Shown here: in pieces, positions 15,613 to 28,948 of the stretch
Position numbering within the stretch: position 1 is the stretch's first letter
Layout: the number at the start of each line of letters is the position of its first letter
Made by a program: the position numbers and the translations under genes
Assembly (NCBI GenBank): GCA_022842905.1
Contig: JALHOS010000034.1
Location: 1-33,257, forward strand
Source of the DNA: Myxococcaceae bacterium
GTDB lineage: Bacteria; Myxococcota; Myxococcia; Myxococcales; Myxococcaceae
Length of the DNA stretch: 33,257 nt
Direction of reading: 5' to 3'
The notes under the pieces: generated by a model
What the model saw: only the letters and a program-made list of their open reading frames with translations
The model's database searches: none
What the model was told of the DNA's origin: nothing

Positions 15613-18600
15613 TCAGGCCCTGCGGCCGCGCCGCCGCCACCGCGCGAGCAGCGCCGCGATCGCCAGCCCAAAGCCCGCACCGCCCTGCCCACAGCTGCAG
15701 CCGATCGTGCCGGTCTTCCCCGGGTCGGCGATCTCGAACTGCAGCACGTCACCGCTGGCGTTGCCGTCCGGCGTGCTCGAGTACAGGCAGTAGAAGTACG
15801 TGCCCGGCTTGAGCCCGCTGGCCACCTGCGTGAGCTGCACCTCTTCGTGGCCGTTGCCTAGCGTCAGCCCTTCGGCAGGCACCGTGGTGCCAAACCCGAG
15901 AATGCAGACCAGCGGGCGCTCCGTGTCGTAGCGGAACCAGGCCTTGCCTTCGCTCCCGTTCGGGTTCGCCGCGCCGGTGAACGTGACCGCGCCGTCGGCG
16001 CCCACTTCCGCGCCTTGGGTGCGCGCCGTCGGTTGTGTCGGAGGCGTCGTGAAGGACTTGAGGCTGCCAAAGGCCGCGCCGCCCATGTTCGAGGCCACCG
16101 CGCAGGAGTGGTACGTGCGGTTCGGCTTCAGGTCCATCAACGCCAGGCTGAAGCTCATGGGGCCCGCGGCGCCGACCGGCAGGCCACCCATGGCCGGGAC
16201 TCGGGTGCCGAACAGATCGTCGCAGGCCGCCGGGCGCTCGAGGCTGTAGCGGAACCACCCGGTGGTCTCGGTGCCGTTCGGCGTGGCCGTGCCTCGCAGC
16301 GTCGCGGCGCGCAGCTGCACGTCGGTGGCGTCGTCCGTCACGACCGTCGGGGGCGGGGAGAAGGCCGTGAAGCTGAGCACCTGGCCAAAGCGCAGGCCGT
16401 ACTGGTTCTGGGCGATCGCGCAGAAGAAGATCGTCACGCCGGGCGCGAGCCCGACGATCGCCTGGGAGAACGGCACGTCGACCGCGCCGCTGCCGATGTT
16501 TGACGACCCCGTGAACGGCGCGCGCGTGCCGAACGTGTCGTTGCAGGTGCCGGGATCCGCCGTGTGGTAGCGGAACCACGCCGTGGTGGGCACGCCGTTC
16601 GCGCGGGCCGAGCCGTTGAGCGTGGGCATGCTGCTCGACACGTTGGTCGCCGACGACGTGGTGACGCCCGGCGCGGCGTGGGTGGTGAAGGACAGCACCT
16701 GGCCGAAGCTCGTGCCCACGACGTTCGTCGCGATCGCGCAGTAGTAGTACTGCGTGGCCTGCTGCAGCCCGGTCAGCGACTGGGCGACGGCCAAGGGCGA
16801 GCCGCCGCTGCCGACGTTGAAGCCTCCGCTCGCGGGCGATCGGGTGCCGAAGGTGTCGTTGCAGGTGCCGGGGTTGGTGGTGGCGTAGCGGAAGTAGGCG
16901 GTCGTCGGCGCGCCGTTCGCGGTGACGCTGCCGTTGATCACCGCGCCCACGTTGGTCACCTGGCTGGCCGCGACGGTCGTCGTCGTCGGCCGGTTCGGCA
17001 GCGTGAAGCTCTGCAGCGAACCAAAGGCAGTGCCGGCCGAGTTCTGCGCCACCGCGCACGTGTAATACGTGGCGCCGGGGACCAGCCCCATGGCGCCTTC
17101 GCTGAAGGCCACCGCCGTCGTCCCTGCGGGGATCGTGGTGCCGCCGGTCGCGGGGAGCCGCGCGCCGAAGCTGTCGTTGCAGGCCAAGGGGTTGGTCACG
17201 CCCACGCGCACCCACGCCGTCGCCGAAGCGCCGCCGGGGTTCACCGTCCCGCCGAGCAGGGCCGAGGTGCCGGTGATCATGCTTGGCGTCGTCGTGGTGA
17301 CGATCGGGAGCGCCGCGGGCGTCGTGAAGCTCTGCACCGCGCCGAAGCTCGTCCCAAACGTGTTCGTCACCATCGCGCAGAAGAAGTACGTGGTGCCTGG
17401 CTGCAGCCCGGTCGCGGTCTGGCTGAAGCTCTGCGGGGAGGTCCCGCTCCCGAGCGTGGCGCCACCGGAGGCCGGCGCGCGCGTCCCGAAGGTGTCGTTG
17501 CAGGTGCCCGGATCGTTCGGGGCCCAGCGGAACCACCCCGTCGTCGCCGCGCCGTTGGGCGTGCCGCTGGCGTTGAGCGTGGCGCTGCTCGCGGTGATCG
17601 ACGTGGCGGCGTTGGTCGTCACGGCAGGCGCGGCGGGCGTCGTGAAGGACTGTACGGTGCCGGTCCGGGTCCCTTCGGGGCTCGTGGCGATCGCGCAGAA
17701 GAAGTACGTCGTCGACGGCTGCAGGCCGGTGATCGCCTGGCTGTAGCTCGTGGCGGTCGAGCCGGCCCCCAGCGCGGACCCACCAGCGCCCGGCGCTCGG
17801 GTGCCGAAGGTGTCGTCACAGGTGCCCGGGTTCGTCGTCGCAAAGCGGAAGTAGCCCGTGGTCGACGCGCCGTTGGGCACCGCGCTGCCGTTGAGCGTCG
17901 CCGAGCTCGTCGTCACCGAGGTGACGCTGCCGGTGGTCGCCGTCGGGGGCGAAGGCGTGAAGAAGCTGAGGAGCGCGCCGGTCGACAGCCCGTTCGTGTT
18001 CTGGCCCAAAGCGCAGAAGTAGTACGTCGTCCCCGGCGTCAGCCCCGTGAGCGCCTGCGAGTACGTCACCGCCGACGTGCCCGTGCCGACGTCCGTGCCA
18101 CCCGTCGAAGGCGCCCGGGTGCCGAAGGTGTCGTTGCAGCTGCCGGGGCTCACCGTCGCGTAGCGGAACCAGCCCGTCGTCTGCGCGCCGAGCGGGTTGG
18201 CCGACCCGTTGATCGTGGCGCCGGTGCCGGTGACTTGGGTGGCGGCGGTCGTGGTGACGGTCGGCCCGGTCGGCGTGGTGAAGCTCAGCGTCGTGCCCGT
18301 CGTCGTGCCCGCGGCGTTCGTGGCGATCGCGCAGAAGTAGTACGTGGTGTTGGGCGCCAGGCCCGTCAGCACCTGCGAGAACGGTTGAGCGGAGCTGCCC
18401 GCGCCGACGTCCGTCCCTCCAGACGAGGGCAGCCGAACCCCGAGAGTGCAGACGCTGCTCGCGCTGGTGCTCCAGCGGAAGTAGCCCGTCGTCGTGGCGC
18501 CGCGTGGAATCGCGGTCCCGTTGAGCTGCGCCGAGCTGCTCGTCACCACCGTGGCCGCGGCGGTCGTCGTCGTCGGCGCGCCCGGCGTCGAGAAGCTCTG

Positions 18601-19488
18601 CACCGTGCCCGTGGCGATGCCGGCTGCGTTCTGGGCGATCGCGCAGAAGTAGTACGTCGTCCCGGCGGTGAGCGTGAAGGTGCCCGCCGCGAAGGAGACG
18701 GAGCTCGTCCCCGAGCCGAGCGGCGTGCCTCCCGAGCTGGGCGTGCGCGTGCCGAACGTGTCCGTGCAGGCGCCGGGATCGACGGTGGAGTAGCGGAACC
18801 ACGCAGTAGTGGCCGCGCCGTTCGGGTTCGCCGCGCCGTTGAGCGTGGCGAAGGTGCCCGTGATCGCCGACGCCGCGCCCGTGGTGACGACCGGGGCCGC
18901 CGGCGTGGTGAAGCTCTGGATCGAGCCGAAGCTCGTCCCTTCCGAGTTCTGGCCGATCGCGCAGAAGAAGTACGTGGTGGACGAAGTCAGGCCGCTGGCG
19001 GTCTGCGAGTAGCTGACGGCTGCCGTGCCGCTGCCCAGCGGCGAGCCCGACGTCGAAGGCACCCGCGTCCCGAACGAGTCGTCGCAGGCGCCGGGGTTGG
19101 TGGCCGAGATGCGGAAGTAGCCCGTCGTCGCTGCGCCGTTGGGATCGCCCGTGCCGCCCAGGAGGGCGCTCGAGCCAGTCACCGAGCTCGCCGCGGACGT
19201 CGTCATCGCCGGGGCGGCCGGCGTGGTGAAGGAGACGATCGTGCCGAACGCCGTGCCTTGTGAGTTGGAGGCCAGCGCGCAGGCGAAGTAGGTCGTGCCG
19301 GCCGTCAACCCGCCGAGGGCCTCCGTGTACGGCACTGCGCTCACGCCGCTGCCCAAGCTCGTGCCGCCGCTGGCCGGTGCCCGCGTGCCGAAGCTGTCGT
19401 CACAGGCCGTGGGGTTCGTCGTGGAATAGCGGAACCAGCCCGTCGCCGCGTCGCCGCGGGGGTTGGCCGAGCCGTTGAGGATCGCCTG
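15613..19488 (-). CDS. 3' part of the frameshifted 28-repeat Fn3-like MYXO-CTERM protein
   Basis: About 1291 codons continuing the repeat protein in the next frame after a one-base loss near 19488. It begins inside repeat 17 (QAILNGSANPRG) and carries repeats 18-28. Each has VTT..A..VT at its start, a NPG-C-DxFGTR loop, a GLxPGTTYYxCA strand and a closing SFTTP. Repeat 28 is degenerate. The C-terminus is a MYXO-CTERM-like sorting signal: CSC, the helix GAGFGLAIAALLA, then RWRRRGRR. By analogy with GlyGly-CTERM/MYXO-CTERM proteins the tail would be processed and the protein attached to the cell surface. No start codon with a ribosome site is seen near 19488, so unless the frame is restored this part may not be translated. 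The frame stays open upstream to 22791 only by chance. Confidence 0.8.
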   Translation of the reverse strand, partial: QAILNGSANPRGDAATGWFRYSTTNPTACDDSFGTRAPASGGTSLGSGVSAVPYTEALGGLTAGTTYFACALASNSQGTAFGTIVSFTTPAAPAMTTSAASSVTGSSALLGGTGDPNGAATTGYFRISATNPGACDDSFGTRVPSTSGSPLGSGTAAVSYSQTASGLTSSTTYFFCAIGQNSEGTSFGSIQSFTTPAAPVVTTGAASAITGTFATLNGAANPNGAATTAWFRYSTVDPGACTDTFGTRTPSSGGTPLGSGTSSVSFAAGTFTLTAGTTYYFCAIAQNAAGIATGTVQSFSTPGAPTTTTAAATVVTSSSAQLNGTAIPRGATTTGYFRWSTSASSVCTLGVRLPSSGGTDVGAGSSAQPFSQVLTGLAPNTTYYFCAIATNAAGTTTGTTLSFTTPTGPTVTTTAATQVTGTGATINGSANPLGAQTTGWFRYATVSPGSCNDTFGTRAPSTGGTDVGTGTSAVTYSQALTGLTPGTTYYFCALGQNTNGLSTGALLSFFTPSPPTATTGSVTSVTTSSATLNGSAVPNGASTTGYFRFATTNPGTCDDTFGTRAPGAGGSALGAGSTATSYSQAITGLQPSTTYFFCAIATSPEGTRTGTVQSFTTPAAPAVTTNAATSITASSATLNASGTPNGAATTGWFRWAPNDPGTCNDTFGTRAPASGGATLGSGTSPQSFSQTATGLQPGTTYFFCAMVTNTFGTSFGAVQSFTTPAALPIVTTTTPSMITGTSALLGGTVNPGGASATAWVRVGVTNPLACNDSFGARLPATGGTTIPAGTTAVAFSEGAMGLVPGATYYTCAVAQNSAGTAFGSLQSFTLPNRPTTTTVAASQVTNVGAVINGSVTANGAPTTAYFRYATTNPGTCNDTFGTRSPASGGFNVGSGGSPLAVAQSLTGLQQATQYYYCAIATNVVGTSFGQVLSFTTHAAPGVTTSSATNVSSSMPTLNGSARANGVPTTAWFRYHTADPGTCNDTFGTRAPFTGSSNIGSGAVDVPFSQAIVGLAPGVTIFFCAIAQNQYGLRFGQVLSFTAFSPPPTVVTDDATDVQLRAATLRGTATPNGTETTGWFRYSLERPAACDDLFGTRVPAMGGLPVGAAGPMSFSLALMDLKPNRTYHSCAVASNMGGAAFGSLKSFTTPPTQPTARTQGAEVGADGAVTFTGAANPNGSEGKAWFRYDTERPLVCILGFGTTVPAEGLTLGNGHEEVQLTQVASGLKPGTYFYCLYSSTPDGNASGDVLQFEIADPGKTGTIGCSCGQGGAGFGLAIAALLARWRRRGRRA

Positions 19489-22400
19489 GTGCCCGTGAGC
19501 ACCGTCGCGGCCGACGTGGTGACGGCCGGCGCCGCGAGCGTCGTGAAGCTCATGACCGTGCCGACCCCGGTGCCGACCACGTTCGAGGCCTGGGCGCAGT
19601 AGTAGTACGTGGTCGCGGGGCTCAGGCCCATGAGCGCCTGCGTGTACGGCTGGGCGCTGCTGCCGGCCCCCACGTTCGTTCCTCCGCTCGACGGCGCGCG
19701 GGTGCCGAAGGTCGTCGTGCAACTCCCGGGGTTGATGGTGCTGTACCGGAAGAAGCCCGTGGTGGTGGCCCCTCGCGGGTTGGCCGTGCCGTTGAGGTTG
19801 GCCGTCGTCGCGCCGATCGCCGACGCCGTGACGCTCGTCACCAGCGGCGTGCCCGGCGTGGTGAACGTGAGCACCGCGCCGAAGGACGTGCCAGCCGCGC
19901 TCGAGGCGAGCGCGCAGTAGTAGTACGTGGTCCCGCTGAAGAGGCCGGTGAGCGCGCGGTTGAAGGACACCGGCGCCGAGCCGTTGCCGAGCGCCAGGTT
20001 CGTCGCAGGCGTCGACGGCGTGCGGGTCCCGAAGCTGTCGTTGCAGCTGCCCGGATCGAGGCTGGAGTAGCGGAACCACGCCCCGGTGGCCGAGCCGTTC
20101 GGGTTCGCCGTGCCGTTGAGCGTCGCGGTGGTGCCGGTGACGAGCGTGGCCGGATCCGTCGTCACGCTGGGCGCGGTCGTGGTGGTGAACTGCTGCACGC
20201 TGCCGAACCCCGCGCCGACCACGTTCTGGGCGATCGCGCAGTAGTAGTACGTCGTCCCGGGCAGGAGCCCCGAGACGGCCTGCGTGTACGACGCCGCGAG
20301 GGAGCCGCTGCCCAGGTCCGTGCCTCCACTGGCCGGGGCACGCGTGCCGAAGGTGTCGTTGCAGCTGCCCGGGCTCGTCGTCGCGTAACGGAAGTAGCCC
20401 GTCGTCGAGGCGAGGTTGGGGTTGGCCGAGCCGTTGAGCGTCGCCACCGTGCTGCCGACGCCGGTGGCGACGACGGTGGTGACGGTGGGCAGGCCCGGCG
20501 TGGTGAACGTCTGCACCGTGCCGAACGTCGTCGCGACCGAGTTCTTGGCGATCGCGCAGTAGTAGTACGTGGTGCCCGTCGTCAGGCCGGTGACCGCGAT
20601 GTTGAAGGGCAGGGTGGTGTTGCCGCCGCCCACGTTCAGCTCCGTCGTGCCGCCCGGAGCGCGCGTGCCGAAGACGTCGTTGCAGTTGATCGGGTTGCTC
20701 GTGCTGTAGCGGAACCAGCCGGTGGTGCTCGCGCCGTTGGGGTTCGCGCTGCCGTTGAGCGTCGCGCCCGTGCCGGTGATGGCCGTCGGCGCCAGCGTGT
20801 TGGTGGCGGGCGCGGTGGGCGGCGTCGTGAAACTCAAGAGGGCGCCGTACGCCAGCCCCGCCGCGTTGTTGGCGATCGCGCAGAAGTAGTACTGCGTGCC
20901 AGGGAGGAGCCCCGACAGGCCCCGCGTGTACGGCTGCGCCACGGTGCCGGCGCCCAGCGCCGTCCCTCCCGTCGTCGGCACGCGCGTGCCGAAGGTGTCG
21001 TCGCAGCTGCCTGGGTTGGTGGTGGCGTAGCGGTACCAGCCGGTGGTGGTCGAGCCGTTGGGGTTGGCGGAGCCGTTGAGCGTCGCGGTGGTGGCCGTCA
21101 CCGGCGAGGCCGCGCTCGTGGTCACGGTCGGCAGCGCGATCGTCGTGAAGCTGAGCAGCGTGCCCAGCGTGAGCCCCACCGAGTTCTGGGCGATCGCGCA
21201 GTAGTAATACGTCGTGTTGGGGGAAAGCCCGGTGAGCGCCTGGCTGAAGGCCGTCGCGGTGTTGCCGGAGCCCAGGTCGGTACCCACCGGCGAAGGCACG
21301 CGGGTGCCGAAGGTGTCGTTGCAGACGGTGGGGTTCATCGTCGAGTACCGGAACCAGCCGGTGGTCGGCGCGCCGCGGGCGGTGCCCGAGCCGTTGATCG
21401 TGGCCGACGTGTCCAGCACCGACGTGGTGCCGACGGTGGTGACGGTGGGGGCCAGTGCCGGGGTCGTGAAGCTGAGCACCGCGCCGAAGCTCATGCCCAC
21501 CACGTTGCTGCCGATGGCGCAGAAGAAATACGTCGTGCCGGGCAACAGCCCCGACGGCGACACCGAGAAGGGCACTTCGACGAAGCCCGCGCCCAGCGCG
21601 TTGCCTCCGGAGATCGGCGCGCGTGCCCCGAAGCTGTCGTTGCAGGTGCCGGGGTTCGTCGTGGCGTAGCGGAACCACCCGGTCGTGTTCGCGCCGTTGG
21701 CGGTGCCTCGGGCCGTCAACGTGGCCGTCGTCGCCGTCACCGACACGGCGGGATCGGTGACGATGGTGGGCGCGGCCAGCGTGGTGAACTGCTGCACCGC
21801 GCCGAAGGTCGTGCCGACGCTGTTGGTCGCCGCCGCGCAGTAGAAGTACGTGGTGCCGGGCGTCAGCCCGGTGAGCGCCGTGTTGTAGTTGACGGAGAAG
21901 TTGCCGCTGCCGAGGCTGCTGCCGCCCGAGGTCGGCGAGCGCGTTCCGTAGGAGTCGTCGCAGGTGCCCGGGTTGACCAGGCCGAAGCGGAAGTAGCCGG
22001 TCGCCGCCGCGCCACCTGGGACCGCCGAGCCCAAGATCGTCGCCGCCGTCCCGCTGGAGACCGTGGAGCTGCCGGTCGTGACGATCGGCGCGGTGGGCGT
22101 GGTGAACTGAAACACGCTCCCGACGCCCGTGCCCGCGGAGTTGTTGCCCAGCGCACAGTAGAAGTACGTCGTGCCTGGCGTCAGGCCGGACAGCGGCTGA
22201 GAGAAGGCGACCGAGGCGTTGCCCGCGCCCAGCGCAGACCCCGAGCCCACCATGCCGGGCAGCCGCGTGCCGAAGGTGTCGTTGCAGGTGCCGGGGCTCG
22301 AGGTCGCGTAGCGGAAGTAGCCCGTGGTGGCCGCGCCGCCGGGGTTCGCGGTGCCGTTCAAGGTCGCGCTCGTCCCCGTCAGCAACGTCACGCTGCCGGT

Positions 22401-24641
22401 GCTGACGGCGGGGATCGCTGGCGGCGCGGTGAAGCCGAGGACGGCGCCGACGGAGGTGCCAACGGAGTTCGTTGCGATCGCGCAGAAAAAGTACGTCGTG
22501 CCCGGCACGGTGGAGATCGTCGACGCGTAGTTGGTGCCGGTCGTCAGCGTGGTGCCGCCGAAGGACGGGGTCCGCGTCCCAAAGCTGTCGTTGCACGTTC
22601 CCGGACTGACGGTGGAGTAGCGGAAGTAGCCGCTCGTCGACGAGCCGTTCGCCGAGCCTGTGCCGTTGAGCGTCGCGGTGGTCGGCGTCAGCGAAGACGC
22701 GGCGACGGTGGCGATCGTCGGCAGGTTCGGCGTGGTGAAGGTGACCGGCGCGCCCACGCCCGTGCCTTCGGCGTTCTGAGCAATCGCGCACAGGTAATAC
22801 GTGGTCCCCGGCAAGAGCCCGGTGGCCGTCTGTCCAAAGGACACGGGGCTCGAGCCCGCGCCCAGCGCCGACCCTCCGCTGACGGGGATCCGCGTCCCGA
22901 ACAGATCGTCACAGGCGATGGGGTTGGTGGTGCTGATCCGGAACCAGCCGGTGGTGCTGGCCAGGTTCGGGTTCGCCTGGCCGCTGAGCGTCGCGCTGAT
23001 GCCGTTGCTGCTGCTGCCCGCAACGGTGGTGACGGTCGGGAGCATGGGCGTCGTGAACTGCAGCACCCCGCCCACGCCCGTGCCGATCGCGTTGCTGGCG
23101 ATCGCGCAATAGAAGTACGTCGTGCCCGGGGTCAGGCCGGTCAGGCCCACGCTGTAGGCCACCGTCGAGTTGCCGTTGCCCAGCGAAGTGCCGCCGGCGG
23201 CCGGGGCGCGGGTGCCAAAGAAGTCGTTGCAGGTGCCGGGGCTCGCCGTCGCGTAGCGGAAGTGCCCAGTCGCAGCCGCGCCGCGCGGGTTCGCGCTGCC
23301 GTTCAACGTGACGGTGGAGCCCGTCAGCAACGTGACCGAGTTGGTGCCGACGGCCGGCGCGAGCGCGTCGGTGGTGAAGGTGTTGATGCCGCCGTAGGTG
23401 ATCCCCTCGAAGTTCTGCGCGATCGCGCAGTAGTAATACGTGGTGCCTGGCAGAAGCCCGCTCAGGGCGTTCGTGTAGAGGACGGGCGAGGTGCCGGTGC
23501 CCAGCCCCGTCCCTCCGGACGAAGGCGCGCGAACGCCGAAGGAGTCGTCGCACAGGCCTGGGTTGACGGACGCGTAGCGGAACCACCCTGTCGTCGACAG
23601 GCGGTTGGGCGTCGCTTCGCCGCGGAGCGTCGCCGTCGACGAGCCGAACACCGTCACCGGCAGCGTCGTGGTCAGCGGCGCCGCGCCGGTCGTGAAGGAC
23701 AGCACCGCGCCGAAGGTCGTCGCCACCGCGTTCTGGGCGATCGCGCAGAAGTAGTACGTCGTGTTGGGGCTCAGCCCGCTCGCGCCTTGGTTGAAGCTCA
23801 CGGGGTTGACGCCGCCGCCCAGGCTCGAGCCTCCGGACATGGGGACGCGGGTGCCGAAGGCGTCGTTGCAGCTGCCTGGATCCGACGAGGCGATCCGGAA
23901 CCAGCCAGTCGTCGCCGCCCCGCCAGGGTTCGCCTGGCCACTGAGCGTGGCCGTGGTGCCCGTCACGCTCGACGAGCTCGTCGTCGTCGTCACCGGTGCC
24001 GCGGTGAGCGTCGTGAAGGACAGCAGCACGCCGGTCGTCGTGCCCTGCGAGTTCGTCGCCTGTGCGCAGTAGTAGTACGTGGTGCCCGGAGAGAGCCCGG
24101 AGATGGTCTGGCTGAACGCCACGCCCGCGCTGCCGCTGCCCAGCGCCGTGCCACCGGAGATCGGGACCCGCGAGCCGAAGAAGGTGTTGCAGCTGAACGG
24201 GTTGGTGGCGCTGTAGCGGAAGAAGCCGTCGGTGCTGGCCCCGTTGGGGGTCGCCGAGCCGTTGAGCTGGGCGCTGTTGCTGGTGACGTTCGTCGCCGCG
24301 TCGGACACCGTCGTCGGGGCCAAGGCCGGCGTGGTGAACGACACCAGCGCGCCGAACGCCGTGCCCGACGTGTTCTGGGCGATCGCGCAGTACCAGTACG
24401 TCGTCCCCGGCGAGAGCCCCGTCGTCTGGAGGTTGTAGTTGACGGTCGCGCTGCCGCTGCCCACGTCGGTGCCGCCCGCGCCCGGCACGCGCACGCCGAA
24501 GTTGTCGTCACACGTCGTCGGGTTGGTCGTGCTGCGCCGGAACCAGGCCTGCGTCGACTCGCCGCCCGGGTTGACCTGGCCGTTGAGGAAGGCCGTCGCC
24601 GCCGTGACGGACGTCGCGCTGTTGGTGGTGACGGTCGGCGC
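15740..24641 (-). repeat. about 28 tandem Fn3-like protein repeats (~106 residues, ~318 bp each)
   Basis: Counting the closing S/QFTTP strand gives 28 units filling nearly all of the 9.1-kb gene. The unit reads: x-P-x-V-T-T-x-x-A-T, LNGxANPxGxxTTxWFRY, NPGxCxDxFGTRxP, GGTxLGxG, GLxPGTTYYxCAIAxN, GTxxG, then VxSFTTP. Two cysteines recur in nearly every unit, about 40 residues apart, probably an intra-repeat disulfide. Units are clearly diverged in sequence, so this is an old expansion and not a recent amplification. Confidence 0.9.
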
Positions 24642-24707
24642 CACGGCGTAGCTGCTCGTCGAGACGAGCGCGACGGCGAAGGCCAGGAGGCCCGGGAAGC
24701 GAGTCAT
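19341..24707 (-). CDS. 5' part of the 28-repeat Fn3-like surface protein (truncated by frameshift)
   Basis: 1788 codons as it stands. The N-terminus MTRFPGLLAFAVALVSTSSY is a signal peptide, cleaved after AYA/AVA-like residues ~21-23. Repeats 1-16 are intact and repeat 17 runs to VTTSAATVLTGT, after which the frame breaks and ~49 unrelated Arg/Ala-rich residues lead to a stop at 19341. ATG 24707 has AGGGAG 7 bases upstream. The original protein would be 3031 residues: 15613-24707 is 9095 bases, exactly one short of a multiple of three. The Fn3-like fold, the disulfide-type cysteine pairs and the C-terminal sorting signal in the 3' part point to a long surface fibre or adhesin. The partner is unknown. 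Confidence 0.85.
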   Translation of the reverse strand: MTRFPGLLAFAVALVSTSSYAVAPTVTTNSATSVTAATAFLNGQVNPGGESTQAWFRRSTTNPTTCDDNFGVRVPGAGGTDVGSGSATVNYNLQTTGLSPGTTYWYCAIAQNTSGTAFGALVSFTTPALAPTTVSDAATNVTSNSAQLNGSATPNGASTDGFFRYSATNPFSCNTFFGSRVPISGGTALGSGSAGVAFSQTISGLSPGTTYYYCAQATNSQGTTTGVLLSFTTLTAAPVTTTTSSSSVTGTTATLSGQANPGGAATTGWFRIASSDPGSCNDAFGTRVPMSGGSSLGGGVNPVSFNQGASGLSPNTTYYFCAIAQNAVATTFGAVLSFTTGAAPLTTTLPVTVFGSSTATLRGEATPNRLSTTGWFRYASVNPGLCDDSFGVRAPSSGGTGLGTGTSPVLYTNALSGLLPGTTYYYCAIAQNFEGITYGGINTFTTDALAPAVGTNSVTLLTGSTVTLNGSANPRGAAATGHFRYATASPGTCNDFFGTRAPAAGGTSLGNGNSTVAYSVGLTGLTPGTTYFYCAIASNAIGTGVGGVLQFTTPMLPTVTTVAGSSSNGISATLSGQANPNLASTTGWFRISTTNPIACDDLFGTRIPVSGGSALGAGSSPVSFGQTATGLLPGTTYYLCAIAQNAEGTGVGAPVTFTTPNLPTIATVAASSLTPTTATLNGTGSANGSSTSGYFRYSTVSPGTCNDSFGTRTPSFGGTTLTTGTNYASTISTVPGTTYFFCAIATNSVGTSVGAVLGFTAPPAIPAVSTGSVTLLTGTSATLNGTANPGGAATTGYFRYATSSPGTCNDTFGTRLPGMVGSGSALGAGNASVAFSQPLSGLTPGTTYFYCALGNNSAGTGVGSVFQFTTPTAPIVTTGSSTVSSGTAATILGSAVPGGAAATGYFRFGLVNPGTCDDSYGTRSPTSGGSSLGSGNFSVNYNTALTGLTPGTTYFYCAAATNSVGTTFGAVQQFTTLAAPTIVTDPAVSVTATTATLTARGTANGANTTGWFRYATTNPGTCNDSFGARAPISGGNALGAGFVEVPFSVSPSGLLPGTTYFFCAIGSNVVGMSFGAVLSFTTPALAPTVTTVGTTSVLDTSATINGSGTARGAPTTGWFRYSTMNPTVCNDTFGTRVPSPVGTDLGSGNTATAFSQALTGLSPNTTYYYCAIAQNSVGLTLGTLLSFTTIALPTVTTSAASPVTATTATLNGSANPNGSTTTGWYRYATTNPGSCDDTFGTRVPTTGGTALGAGTVAQPYTRGLSGLLPGTQYYFCAIANNAAGLAYGALLSFTTPPTAPATNTLAPTAITGTGATLNGSANPNGASTTGWFRYSTSNPINCNDVFGTRAPGGTTELNVGGGNTTLPFNIAVTGLTTGTTYYYCAIAKNSVATTFGTVQTFTTPGLPTVTTVVATGVGSTVATLNGSANPNLASTTGYFRYATTSPGSCNDTFGTRAPASGGTDLGSGSLAASYTQAVSGLLPGTTYYYCAIAQNVVGAGFGSVQQFTTTTAPSVTTDPATLVTGTTATLNGTANPNGSATGAWFRYSSLDPGSCNDSFGTRTPSTPATNLALGNGSAPVSFNRALTGLFSGTTYYYCALASSAAGTSFGAVLTFTTPGTPLVTSVTASAIGATTANLNGTANPRGATTTGFFRYSTINPGSCTTTFGTRAPSSGGTNVGAGSSAQPYTQALMGLSPATTYYYCAQASNVVGTGVGTVMSFTTLAAPAVTTSAATVLTGTRRSSTARPTPAATRRRAGSAIPRRTPRPVTTASARGHRPAAARAWAAA

Positions 24708-24712
24708 GGTGT

Positions 24713-24724
24713 TCTCCCTGGAGA
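24713..24724 (-). promoter_or_regulatory. short dyad over the repeat-protein ribosome-binding site
   Basis: On the minus strand TCTCC-AG-GGAGA overlaps the AGGGAG Shine-Dalgarno of the giant gene. As RNA it would need a 4-bp stem with a 4-base loop, so it is a weak structure. Noted because it could lower translation of a very large protein. Confidence 0.2.
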
Positions 24725-24777: not shown

Positions 24778-25941
24778 TCAACCCACCACGACCGTGAACT
24801 GTGCACCTTCTGGTGTCTCGAGGACGTCGCCGCCCAGCAGCCGCGTCGGCTTGACGGGGCGGCCGTTGATGAGGAGGGACGGGTGGGGCTGGGCGAGCCA
24901 ATACGCCAGGGGCTCGGTCTGGATCGCGAAGCTGGTGGCCGTGCCGTGGCGGGCTTGGGCCGACGGGCTCGCTCGGAGGCGGCCGGGCTCGGTGCTGCCC
25001 ACCCACAGGCCGGCGTCGAGCGACAGGCCGCGGGCGTCTTCGGCGAAGTCGGCCCGAAACTCGAGCGCGGGTGGAATGCGGCTGGGGCGCAGGAACGCCT
25101 GAGCACGCTGGAGGAGCAGCGGCTGAACGTCGAGCGCCGGGTGCCTCGTGCGGAGGCGGGCCTCGAGCGCGGTCAGGAACGGCGAGTCGCCCAGCGCTGC
25201 GTCGACGTAGCCGAGGGAGACGGTGCGCAGACACGGGAGCGAGAACCCGCCGAGCAGCCCGCGGAGCACCAGCGACGCGTCGGCCAGGCAGCGCGCCGAC
25301 GGCCGCTGATCGCGCAGGCACACGTCGACGGTGAGCCGCTCGATCCACCGCGCCAGGCGCAGGGCCAGCACCTGGGCCAAGAGCGTCACCTGCTCGGCGG
25401 CCGAGCTCGCGCAGCGCAGCGTGGCGGCGACGATGAGGCCGTGCCGCCAGTCCAACTCGAGCCAGCCCGAGTCCACCGCGCGGCGGGTGCCTTCGAGGCA
25501 GCGCGTGGCCGTTTGTCCGTGGGCGAGAGCGGCGCCGACGGGGTCGCCCTGCTCGAGCAGCCAGTCGGCCCACACACCGAGCGTCCGCAGGTCCGCCGGC
25601 GCCCGGGTGACCTGCGCTTCGAGCTCCGCGCTGACGGCCGAGGGGCGTGGTTGGTAGACGAAGAGCGCTCCGCCCACGTCGAGCACGTCGCCGTCGGTGA
25701 GCTCCGCGCGCTCCACCGGGCTGTCGTTGAGCCGGGTGCGGCCCAGCGGGAAGGGGTTGTGCACGGCCCAGCCGGACGGCGTGCGCTTGAGGCACAGCTC
25801 CCGGCGCGTTGCCCCCACCGGCGCTACCTGGAGCGCGGGCGGCGAGCTCTGGGAAAAGTAGACCCACGCCGGTGTGGCGGGCAGCGGCAGCTCCGCCGCG
25901 GTGAAGCCTTCCAGATCGATGCGCTTGAGCACGCCGCTCAT
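24778..25941 (-). CDS. FHA-like / TIGR02996-like protein (second of a paralogous pair)
   Basis: 387 residues, MSGVLKRIDLEGF onward. An N-terminal ~100-residue FHA-like region (LNDSPVERAELTDGDVLDVG) lacks the canonical SxxH. A central segment DLRTLGVWADWLLEQGDPVG (~130-150) matches the TIGR02996 'repeat-companion' motif, followed by LDWRHGLIVAATL. A C-terminal FHA-like end (PSLLINGRPVKPTRLLGGDV) has the NGRPV turn and GD loop. Architecture and many local motifs match the upstream neighbour, so the two arose by duplication. The ATG overlaps that neighbour's stop by 4 bases (ATGA). The function is unknown; loss of the phosphothreonine contacts suggests a structural FHA fold. Confidence 0.8.
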   Translation of the reverse strand: MSGVLKRIDLEGFTAAELPLPATPAWVYFSQSSPPALQVAPVGATRRELCLKRTPSGWAVHNPFPLGRTRLNDSPVERAELTDGDVLDVGGALFVYQPRPSAVSAELEAQVTRAPADLRTLGVWADWLLEQGDPVGAALAHGQTATRCLEGTRRAVDSGWLELDWRHGLIVAATLRCASSAAEQVTLLAQVLALRLARWIERLTVDVCLRDQRPSARCLADASLVLRGLLGGFSLPCLRTVSLGYVDAALGDSPFLTALEARLRTRHPALDVQPLLLQRAQAFLRPSRIPPALEFRADFAEDARGLSLDAGLWVGSTEPGRLRASPSAQARHGTATSFAIQTEPLAYWLAQPHPSLLINGRPVKPTRLLGGDVLETPEGAQFTVVVG

Positions 25942-27113
25942 GGCACCAGCTCGAAGCGGAACTTCGCCAGCCCGTGGAAGTCGAGCAGATCGCCGGGGAG
26001 CAGCTGGGCGGTGCGTACGGCGCGGCCGTTGAGCTTCACCTCGCCGTGGAGCTTGCCTACCATGAGCGTCCAGGTGCCGCCGTCGAACGCGAAGTAGCAG
26101 GGGTTCGTGTCCGACGAGAAGAACGCGAGGCCCGGCGGCGACTCGAGGTGCAGCGTGCGCCGGTCGGCCTTGCGTACGCGCGTCAGCTCGCGCAGCAGGC
26201 GGCCCCCTTCGTCACAGCCCGTCAGCCGCGCCCCCTGAGCGACCTCGACGACGAGCAGCCGCGCCGCGCTGGCGACCGAGAAGATGGGCCGCGCAGCGAG
26301 GCCCGGGGCCGCGGCCAACAGCGCCGCGCTCAGCCCGATCGGAGGCGCCGAGGTGGGGCCGATCCGGTAGCCGAAGGACAGCGCGCGGAGCCGCCGGCAG
26401 AGCGCGGGGACGCTGGCGACGAAGGTCTGGGCTCCCTGGAGCAACTCGTCGACGGGCGTCAGACTCGAGTCGAGCCGAGGGAGATCGACCGTCAGCGAGT
26501 GCAGCAGGCGCCCCACCCGCAGCCCGAGCAGCGCGTGCACGGCCTGCTGCCAGTCGAAGGCGAGGTGGCCGGCCACGGGTCGCAGCTGCGCGCGCCGCGC
26601 AAAGCCGTGGTGCCAGTCGATCTCCAGGGCGCCGGCGACGTAGAGCTCTCGCAGCGGGCCCAGCCACGGCAGATCGTTCTGGCGTTCGCCGCGCAGCGAC
26701 GCCAGCACCCGCGCGCCCAGCGGATCTTCGCGCTCGAGCAGCCAGTCGGCGAACACCTGCCAGGCCAAAGGATCGTCGTCGTGGCTCGCCAGCGCGTCGA
26801 AGGCGACGGCGTCGTCCGGCGCTTGAGGGCTGCGAAACTGGAGCTGCACCGCACCGAACTCGAGCCGATCGCCGTCGAACAGAGCGCGCGGAAAGGACAA
26901 CGGCACGCCGTTGACGCGGGTCCCCTGGGCGCTGCCCAAGTCCCGCACGGTCCAGAGCGCGCCGTCGCCGCTCAGCTCGCAGTGCACCTGGGAGAGCCGC
27001 GGATCGTCGAAGACCAGCGTCGCCTTGCGGCCCTTGCCCAGGGTGATGGTCGCCTTGCCGTCGGGCAGCTCGATCGGTTCCCCGGGCGGCTGCACGCGGT
27101 CCAGGCGGCTCAC
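25938..27113 (-). CDS. FHA domain / TIGR02996-like protein (first of a paralogous pair)
   Basis: 391 residues. An N-terminal FHA domain (~18-90) has ITLGKGRKATLVF, DPRLSQVHCEL (SxxH-type), LGSAQGTRVNGVPL and DGDRLEFG, so phosphothreonine binding is plausible. At ~115-145, AWQVFADWLLEREDPLGA matches the TIGR02996 motif, followed by IDWHHGFARRAQL. The C-terminus (~320-391) has a second FHA-like fold with KLNGRAVRTAQLLPGDLL. GTG 27113 is chosen: its G is the last base of the typA TAG (TAGTG overlap) and GGAAGAG lies just upstream. Earlier in-frame codons would overlap typA by up to 400 bases. It is translationally coupled to typA and to the next paralogue. Confidence 0.83.
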   Translation of the reverse strand: MSRLDRVQPPGEPIELPDGKATITLGKGRKATLVFDDPRLSQVHCELSGDGALWTVRDLGSAQGTRVNGVPLSFPRALFDGDRLEFGAVQLQFRSPQAPDDAVAFDALASHDDDPLAWQVFADWLLEREDPLGARVLASLRGERQNDLPWLGPLRELYVAGALEIDWHHGFARRAQLRPVAGHLAFDWQQAVHALLGLRVGRLLHSLTVDLPRLDSSLTPVDELLQGAQTFVASVPALCRRLRALSFGYRIGPTSAPPIGLSAALLAAAPGLAARPIFSVASAARLLVVEVAQGARLTGCDEGGRLLRELTRVRKADRRTLHLESPPGLAFFSSDTNPCYFAFDGGTWTLMVGKLHGEVKLNGRAVRTAQLLPGDLLDFHGLAKFRFELVP

Positions 27114-28948
27114 TACTCTTCCATGTCGCGCTTGCGATCCCGCTGCTCGCGGTAGCGCGTGTTGAACGCGAGGTTGCGCTTGCGCAGGCGAATGGACTTG
27201 GGCGTCACCTCGACCAGCTCGTCTTCGGCGATCCACTCGAGCGACTTCTCGAGCGTGATCTCCCGCGGCGGGGTGAGGATCACGTTCTCGTCGCGGCCGG
27301 CGGCGCGAATGTTGGTGAGCTTCTTCTCGCGGCAGGCGTTGACGTCGAGATCGCTGGGGTGCGCGTGCTCGCCGATGATCATGCCTTCGTACACGGGCAC
27401 GCCGGGGCCGACGAACAGCGCGCCGCGCTCTTGGATCGAGAACAGCGCGTAGGGGATCGTCTCGCCGATGCGGTCGGCGATGATCGCGCCGTTCGAACGC
27501 CGGGGGATGTAGCCCATCCACGGTTCCCAGCCGTCGAACTGGCTGGACATGATCCCTTCACCCTTGGTGATGGTGAGGAACTCGCCGCGGAAGCCGACCA
27601 GGCCACGCGCCGGGATCCGGAACTGCAAGCGCACGCGGGCGCCGCCGATCTGATCCATGCCCATCATGCGGCCTTTGCGAGGCCCGAGGCGCTCGGTGAC
27701 GATGCCGACGGACACCTCGGGCACGTCCGCGACGAGCAGCTCCATGGGCTCGTGCTTGACGCCGTCGATCTCCTTGGTGAGCGGCACCGGGTTCGACGCG
27801 GTCAGCTCGTAGCCTTCGCGCCGCATGGTCTCGATGATCACCGCCAGCTGGAGCTCGCCGCGCGCGACGACGCGGAAGGCTTCGGGCGTGTCGGTGTCCT
27901 CCACGCGGATCGACACGTTGCGGTAGGACTCGCGCTGCAGCCGGTCACGAATGTTGCGGCTGGTGACGTACTTGCCTTCGCGCCCGGCGTACGGCCCGTC
28001 GTTGACGCGGAACACCATCATCATGGTGGGCTCGTCGACCTTGATGCGCGAGAGCGCCTTGGGCGTCTCCGGGTGGCTGACGGTGTCGCCGATCGACAGG
28101 CCTTCGATCCCGGCGATGCAGACGATCTCCCCGGGGCCCGCGTCGGGGATCTCCACGCGCTTGAGGCCGGAGAAGCCGTACAGCTTGACCAGCTTGCCTT
28201 GCTCGACCTTCCCGCCGTCACGGCAGATCGCCACCGGCATGTTCGGCGCGAGCCGCCCAGACGTCATGCGGCCAATGCCGATGCGGCCGACGTAGTCGTC
28301 GTAGTCGAGGTTCGCGATCAGCAGCTGCGGCACCTCTTCCTCGGGCGGCGGCGGCGGGGGAATGTGGCTGATGATCGCGTCGAACAGGGGCTCGAGCGTC
28401 TTGCCCGGCACGTCGAGCGCCGTCGACGCCTTGCCTTCGCGGGCGATCGCGTAGAGCACCGGGAAGTCCAGGTCCTTCTCGTCGGCGCCGAGGTCGATGT
28501 AGAGCGAATAGACCTGATCGAGCACGTCCTTCGCGCGGGCGTCCTTGCGGTCGATCTTGTTGATCACCAGCACCGTCTTGAGGCCCAGCGCCAGCGCCTT
28601 GGACAGCACGAAGCGCGTCTGCGGCAGCGGGCCTTCGGCGGCGTCCACCAGCAACAGCACGCCGTCCACCATGCGCAGGGCGCGCTCGACCTCACCGCCG
28701 AAGTCGGCGTGGCCCGGCGTGTCGACGATGTTGACGAACTTGCCCTTCCACGAAATGGCCGTGTTCTTGGCCATGATCGTGATGCCCTTCTCACGCTCGA
28801 GGTCGTTCGAGTCCATGACGCGCTCGGCGACGACTTCGTTGGAACGAAAGGCGCCGCCCTGCCGAAGCATGAAGTCGACGAGGGTGGTCTTGCCGTGGTC
28901 GACGTGTGCGACGATGCCGACGTTGCGAATGTTCTCTCGGGGAAACAT
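27113..28948 (-). CDS. typA: ribosome-associated GTPase TypA/BipA
   Basis: 611 residues, the family's usual length. It is a translational GTPase that binds 70S ribosomes and helps 50S assembly at low temperature and under stress. Motifs: G1 [11 protein letters not shown], the switch/EKGITI region, G3 [14 protein letters not shown], and G4 NKIDRKDAR. Then come domain II ([13 protein letters not shown]) and the EF-G-like domains III and V, with the BipA-specific C-terminal portion ([19 protein letters not shown]). ATG 28948 has no clear Shine-Dalgarno (CGCGCCTCC precedes it). A TATAGG at 28965-28960 would give an almost leaderless transcript. Its stop overlaps the FHA gene's GTG. Confidence 0.96.

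Follow-up and report, generated by a model that had tools for sequence, protein, structure and literature searches.

A giant repeat gene on a contig of a Myxococcaceae draft genome is read in two different frames. The question is whether the gene is broken in the organism itself or only in its assembled sequence. The draft has 7.85 Mb in 667 contigs and is 98.9% complete, and the window, the whole stretch of 33,257 nucleotides analysed here, is one entire contig. The first-pass annotation had ascribed the split to a single-base loss in a C-run, caused by a homopolymer sequencing error, a real truncating mutation, or phase variation. The features of the gene are listed in Table 1.

The break is confirmed as a real feature of the assembled sequence. 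From the ATG at 24707 the 5' frame is native for 1740 codons, down to VLTGT at 19488, and is then followed by 48 foreign residues and a TGA (19341-19343). The 3' frame resumes from 19488 as QAILNGSANPRG and is open for 1291 codons, up to the stop at 15613. The full span is indeed one base short of a multiple of three (9095 nt, remainder 2 modulo 3). A single break suffices, as had been stated: a codon-usage model, blind to the repeats, switches only once in the gene, at 19488/19489. The window has just one other switch, close to 27115; there the upstream frame reaches its stop in no more than 3 bases, like an ordinary gene overlap.

The placing of the loss in a C-run did not hold. The site as read is CC, and the lost base has more than one frame-restoring placing near the split codon; thus the C-run is an assumption. 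The gene holds 547 exact CC pairs and 317 longer runs, of three to five bases each (137 of C and 180 of G). The proposed addition of a C restores the frame and yields VLTGTQAILNG, but the resulting glutamine is absent or rare in that column: it occurs in none of the 24 scorable other units of the window (three are unscorable by the pattern) and, among five sister copies, in 4 of the 113 units that could be scored (32 could not).

Table 1. Features of the split giant gene in the window.
Feature	Position	Strand	Basis
Split giant repeat gene, about 28 FN3-like units	15613..24707	minus	Frame reads, repeat profile, Pfam
AGGGAG, candidate ribosome-binding site 6 nt ahead of the ATG	24714..24719	minus	Read by eye; putative function
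Signal-peptide-like N-terminus MTRFPGLLAFAVALVSTSSYA	24645..24707	minus	Translation, recognised by eye
5' part: signal, 16 whole units, first strand of unit 17	19489..24707	minus	Codon-model segment
Frame break in FN3 unit 17, between strands A and B	19488..19489	minus	Codon model, frame reads
48-residue out-of-frame tail and TGA closing the 5' frame	19341..19487	minus	Translation
3' part in the other frame: remainder of unit 17, all of units 18-28 and the C-terminal motif	15613..19488	minus	Frame reads, codon model
GTG in the 3' frame, overlapping the TGA (GTGA)	19342..19344	minus	Weak possible restart, probably coincidence
MYXO-CTERM-like tail GCSCGQGG..AALLARWRRRGRRA	15613..15702	minus	By eye; NCBIfam scores below cut-offs

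The units are mostly 106-107 residues long (range 103-108). Of the repeat anchors, 16 lie ahead of the break and 12 behind it, which puts the break in unit 17 of 28. The Pfam domains fn3 and Pur_ac_phosph_N score above cut-off in both gene pieces, fn3 with 52 and 72.2 bits against a curated cut-off of 25. A predicted model of two units has a mean pLDDT of 97.6, and its best PDB matches in Foldseek are tandem FN3 pairs, neogenin first (E 7e-7, TM about 0.55 over two domains). The units are predicted with very high confidence to be FN3 sandwiches. The strands at the break were taken from this model of two other units and transferred by the repeat register. Across all 38 aligned unit pairs two cysteines are retained in both units, which suggests one disulphide per domain. 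In the predicted fold the units resemble tandem FN3 proteins (PF00041; also PF16656), whereas here about 28 units of about 106 residues, each with the invariant cysteine pair, stand in tandem in a myxobacterium-like genome. The product of the intact gene would be a secreted chain of about 28 FN3 domains.

The start of this product resembles an export signal, and by eye its C-terminus seems to carry a cysteine motif, a hydrophobic (transmembrane) stretch and an arginine cluster, like the MYXO-CTERM proteins described as sorted by myxosortase (PMC11980579). However, the window tail misses the cut-offs of TIGR03901 (7.3 of 20 bits) and TIGR03382 (11.2 of 15.85 bits), whereas the tail of one related copy, L017, passes both with 21.3 bits each. 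Four other TIGR03901 matches above cut-off are present elsewhere in the genome. Among the matches listed by a literature search none paired 'fibronectin type III' with 'MYXO-CTERM'; we do not claim that the gene is undescribed.

Relatives with the gene come from records named Archangium, Myxococcus, Myxococcaceae, Archangiaceae, Polyangiaceae and a few others. These names suggest that the draft most likely represents an uncultured bacterium of the Myxococcus/Archangium family. Of 20 related copies that are distinct by contig, 19 have an unbroken array whose units all share one open frame. In the profile scan of the window and 21 related loci, 20 of the latter yielded at least three units; two of these, L017 and L024, are the same contig, leaving 19 arrays, 18 of them unbroken. 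The twentieth array, L113, is the sole new one among 13 further loci, the others having been counted already or lying on the same contigs; each of the 13 is in a single frame. Several related arrays are partial at contig ends, and two contig-end pieces of one genome (L026 and L032), counted separately, may belong to a single array. Apart from the window, the sole broken copy is a four-unit array in a Polyangiaceae draft (L037:6634-7345), which shows both a change of frame and an in-frame stop. A search across the family matched 23 of 96 genomes, and none of the matches listed contained an internal stop.

The open frames of the sister genus, measured from stop to stop, have 3022, 3045, 3056, 3067 and 3389 aa (the first four from four genomes), compared with 3031 codons for the span in the window. 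By the profile, the window has 29 segments, as does each of five complete sister copies (L017, L109-L112). In each of these copies the same-numbered unit is the best match for 12 or 13 of the 29 window units, as counted by eye. Thus the size of the array and, in part, the order of its units appear to be inherited, and this speaks for the full length being under constraint. Three other loci, from records named Polyangiaceae, delta proteobacterium and Myxococcales (L025, L036, L033), have 32, 30 and 23 profile segments, respectively, each in one open frame.

Neither the relatives nor the family and order searches contained a genome of the same genus other than the window's own, hence there is no close strain for comparison. 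A contig scan gave 18 distinct related loci, none of the same species by identity (best segment 59%). Seven proteins from the flanks of the gene gave no tblastn match at E 1e-5 in 16 related loci. As the flanks are short, this suggests only that the near genes are not shared with the related loci. Just upstream of the giant gene, on the minus strand at 24778-27115, there are two adjacent paralogue-like genes with FHA-like sequence (by eye).

The sequence behind the break carries no signs of decay. No second frameshift, which the first-pass annotation had named as a refuting observation, and no stops, indels or lost conserved residues were found there by tracking the frame of the units, by the codon model or by profile scores. 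The third-position G+C content is 0.940 behind the break and 0.953 ahead of it. With a profile built from sister copies only, the window scores differ from the sister mean by -4.8 bits in units 2-16 and by -2.9 bits in units 18-28 (p 0.76). The 1291 stop-free codons limit neutral divergence since a loss to less than about 4%; this bound follows from 238 one-step changes to a stop, with 79 stops expected per substitution per site. If not an artefact, the break is recent.

The leading explanation is an assembly or sequencing error, to which we give a probability of about 0.52, narrowly ahead of a recent private mutation. In that case the gene would be intact in living cells, as one frame ending in a surface-sorting-like C-terminal tail, as in the relatives, and the break would be a single unprogrammed loss of one base in a draft assembly. 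This is consistent with a lone break followed by 1291 open codons free of decay, with the intact arrays in 19 of 20 relatives, and with a span that matches the sister lengths. The quality of the assembly points the same way: it is a draft of 667 contigs, some of which contain 10-N gaps, and its sampled coding DNA (about 1.06 Mb) shows 16 other apparent breaks, compared with 4 in the 0.69 Mb taken from control genomes. On the other hand, this particular contig contains no N, the break is far from its ends, and the site is not a homopolymer. Homopolymers are the usual place of indel errors. The sequencing error survives from the original proposal, but its homopolymer mechanism is unsupported, as the break spared many longer runs and the placing of the lost base is not unique. 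Repeat-driven misassembly was also considered. The longest exact repeats in the gene are of 35-39 nt, but no exact repeat of at least 12 bases spans the break, and thus repeat collapse is not the cause.

Many putative pseudogenes are reported to stem from assembly errors (Cooley and Wright 2024, PMC11017572). The present case resembles the spurious or recent single-mutation pseudogenes considered there: one indel, the rest of the gene intact, intact relatives and a draft assembly. The difference is that here the break is known from the assembled letters alone, which do not separate the spurious from the real.

The excess of breaks in the draft is not significant, and this speaks against an error. 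The window was one of 60 genome stretches sampled, which total 1,191,028 bases, 1,065,875 of them called coding. The detector reported 17 breaks: the one in the window, three at N-gaps, two no more than 250 bases from a contig end, and 11 elsewhere. The controls were a one-contig genome, a three-contig genome and two drafts; their 689,645 coding bases had 2, 0, 1 and 1 breaks, 4 in total. This gives 15.1 breaks per Mb without the window against 5.8 in the controls (p 0.11), and 12.3 per Mb (p 0.22) if the N-gaps are also set aside. These rates are rough, as some events with short arms may be false; when 100 single-base losses were simulated per genome, the detector recovered 71 here and 66-85 in the controls. 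At these rates the chance that a gene of 9.1 kb carries one or more breaks is 11-13%, so the one observed is unremarkable in number. The background breaks may be mostly true pseudogenes. In two places of the same draft, L142:2404 and L142:6639, and L152:11636-12603, two or three apparent breaks lie close together.

The second explanation, a real and recent truncation in the strain or in part of its population, also survives from the first-pass annotation and is a serious possibility, only narrowly behind an error. The absence of any N, repeat overlap or homopolymer at the site speaks for it, and break rates in the controls are not zero: the one-contig genome G006 has two. The truncated gene would encode an exported precursor of 1788 residues with 16 whole FN3 domains and without the C-terminal sorting tail. 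TraA without its MYXO-CTERM is described as released to the medium via type II secretion (PMC11980579). By analogy, the truncated product would be released or degraded rather than held at the surface; the window tail being below the family cut-offs, this step is tentative. However, 19 of the 20 distinct relatives are intact, and the part behind the break shows no relaxed constraint, so that the mutation would have to be young, although the missing stops alone bound its age no more tightly than the 4% given above. It is very unlikely that the truncation was selected in the lineage, so that a chain of about 28 FN3 domains held at the surface became one of 16 that is released, with altered contact between the cell and its neighbours. 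If it was, it affected a gene for which the sister genus otherwise keeps a fixed array size.

The remaining explanations carry little weight. Phase variation, in which a short C-run gains or loses a base and toggles a full-length surface protein, would suit a surface-type repeat protein, a class that is often phase-variable. However, neither CC nor CCC makes a mutable tract, single-base runs in the gene reach at most five, units of 2-6 bases never come to five copies within it, and no relative is broken at the same place; this part of the original proposal is thus highly improbable. It is just as hard to believe in two separate genes, the second of which would restart at the GTG that overlaps the 5' stop (GTGA, 19341-19344): no purine-rich site precedes this GTG, the second product would have no export signal, the break is in the middle of a domain, and the relatives have one gene. 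Moreover, valine is common at that position in other units, so the GTG is likely there by chance. Least probable of all is a programmed ribosomal frameshift fusing both frames, for although both frames stay open for 147 nt behind the break, and a full-length product would resemble the proteins of the relatives, there are no in-frame X-XXY-YYZ heptamers in the last 110 codons of the 5' frame, and none of the 13 further loci uses two frames.

The break thus has the look of a routine sequencing slip or a new mutation rather than of a switch. Gene callers will record two proteins here against one in the relatives, giving a misleading annotation of a giant surface-type protein. The wider interest lies in the intact gene: its array of about 28 FN3 domains has kept its size, and some of its unit order, in the sister genus, whereas repeats that recombine easily would be expected to do the opposite.
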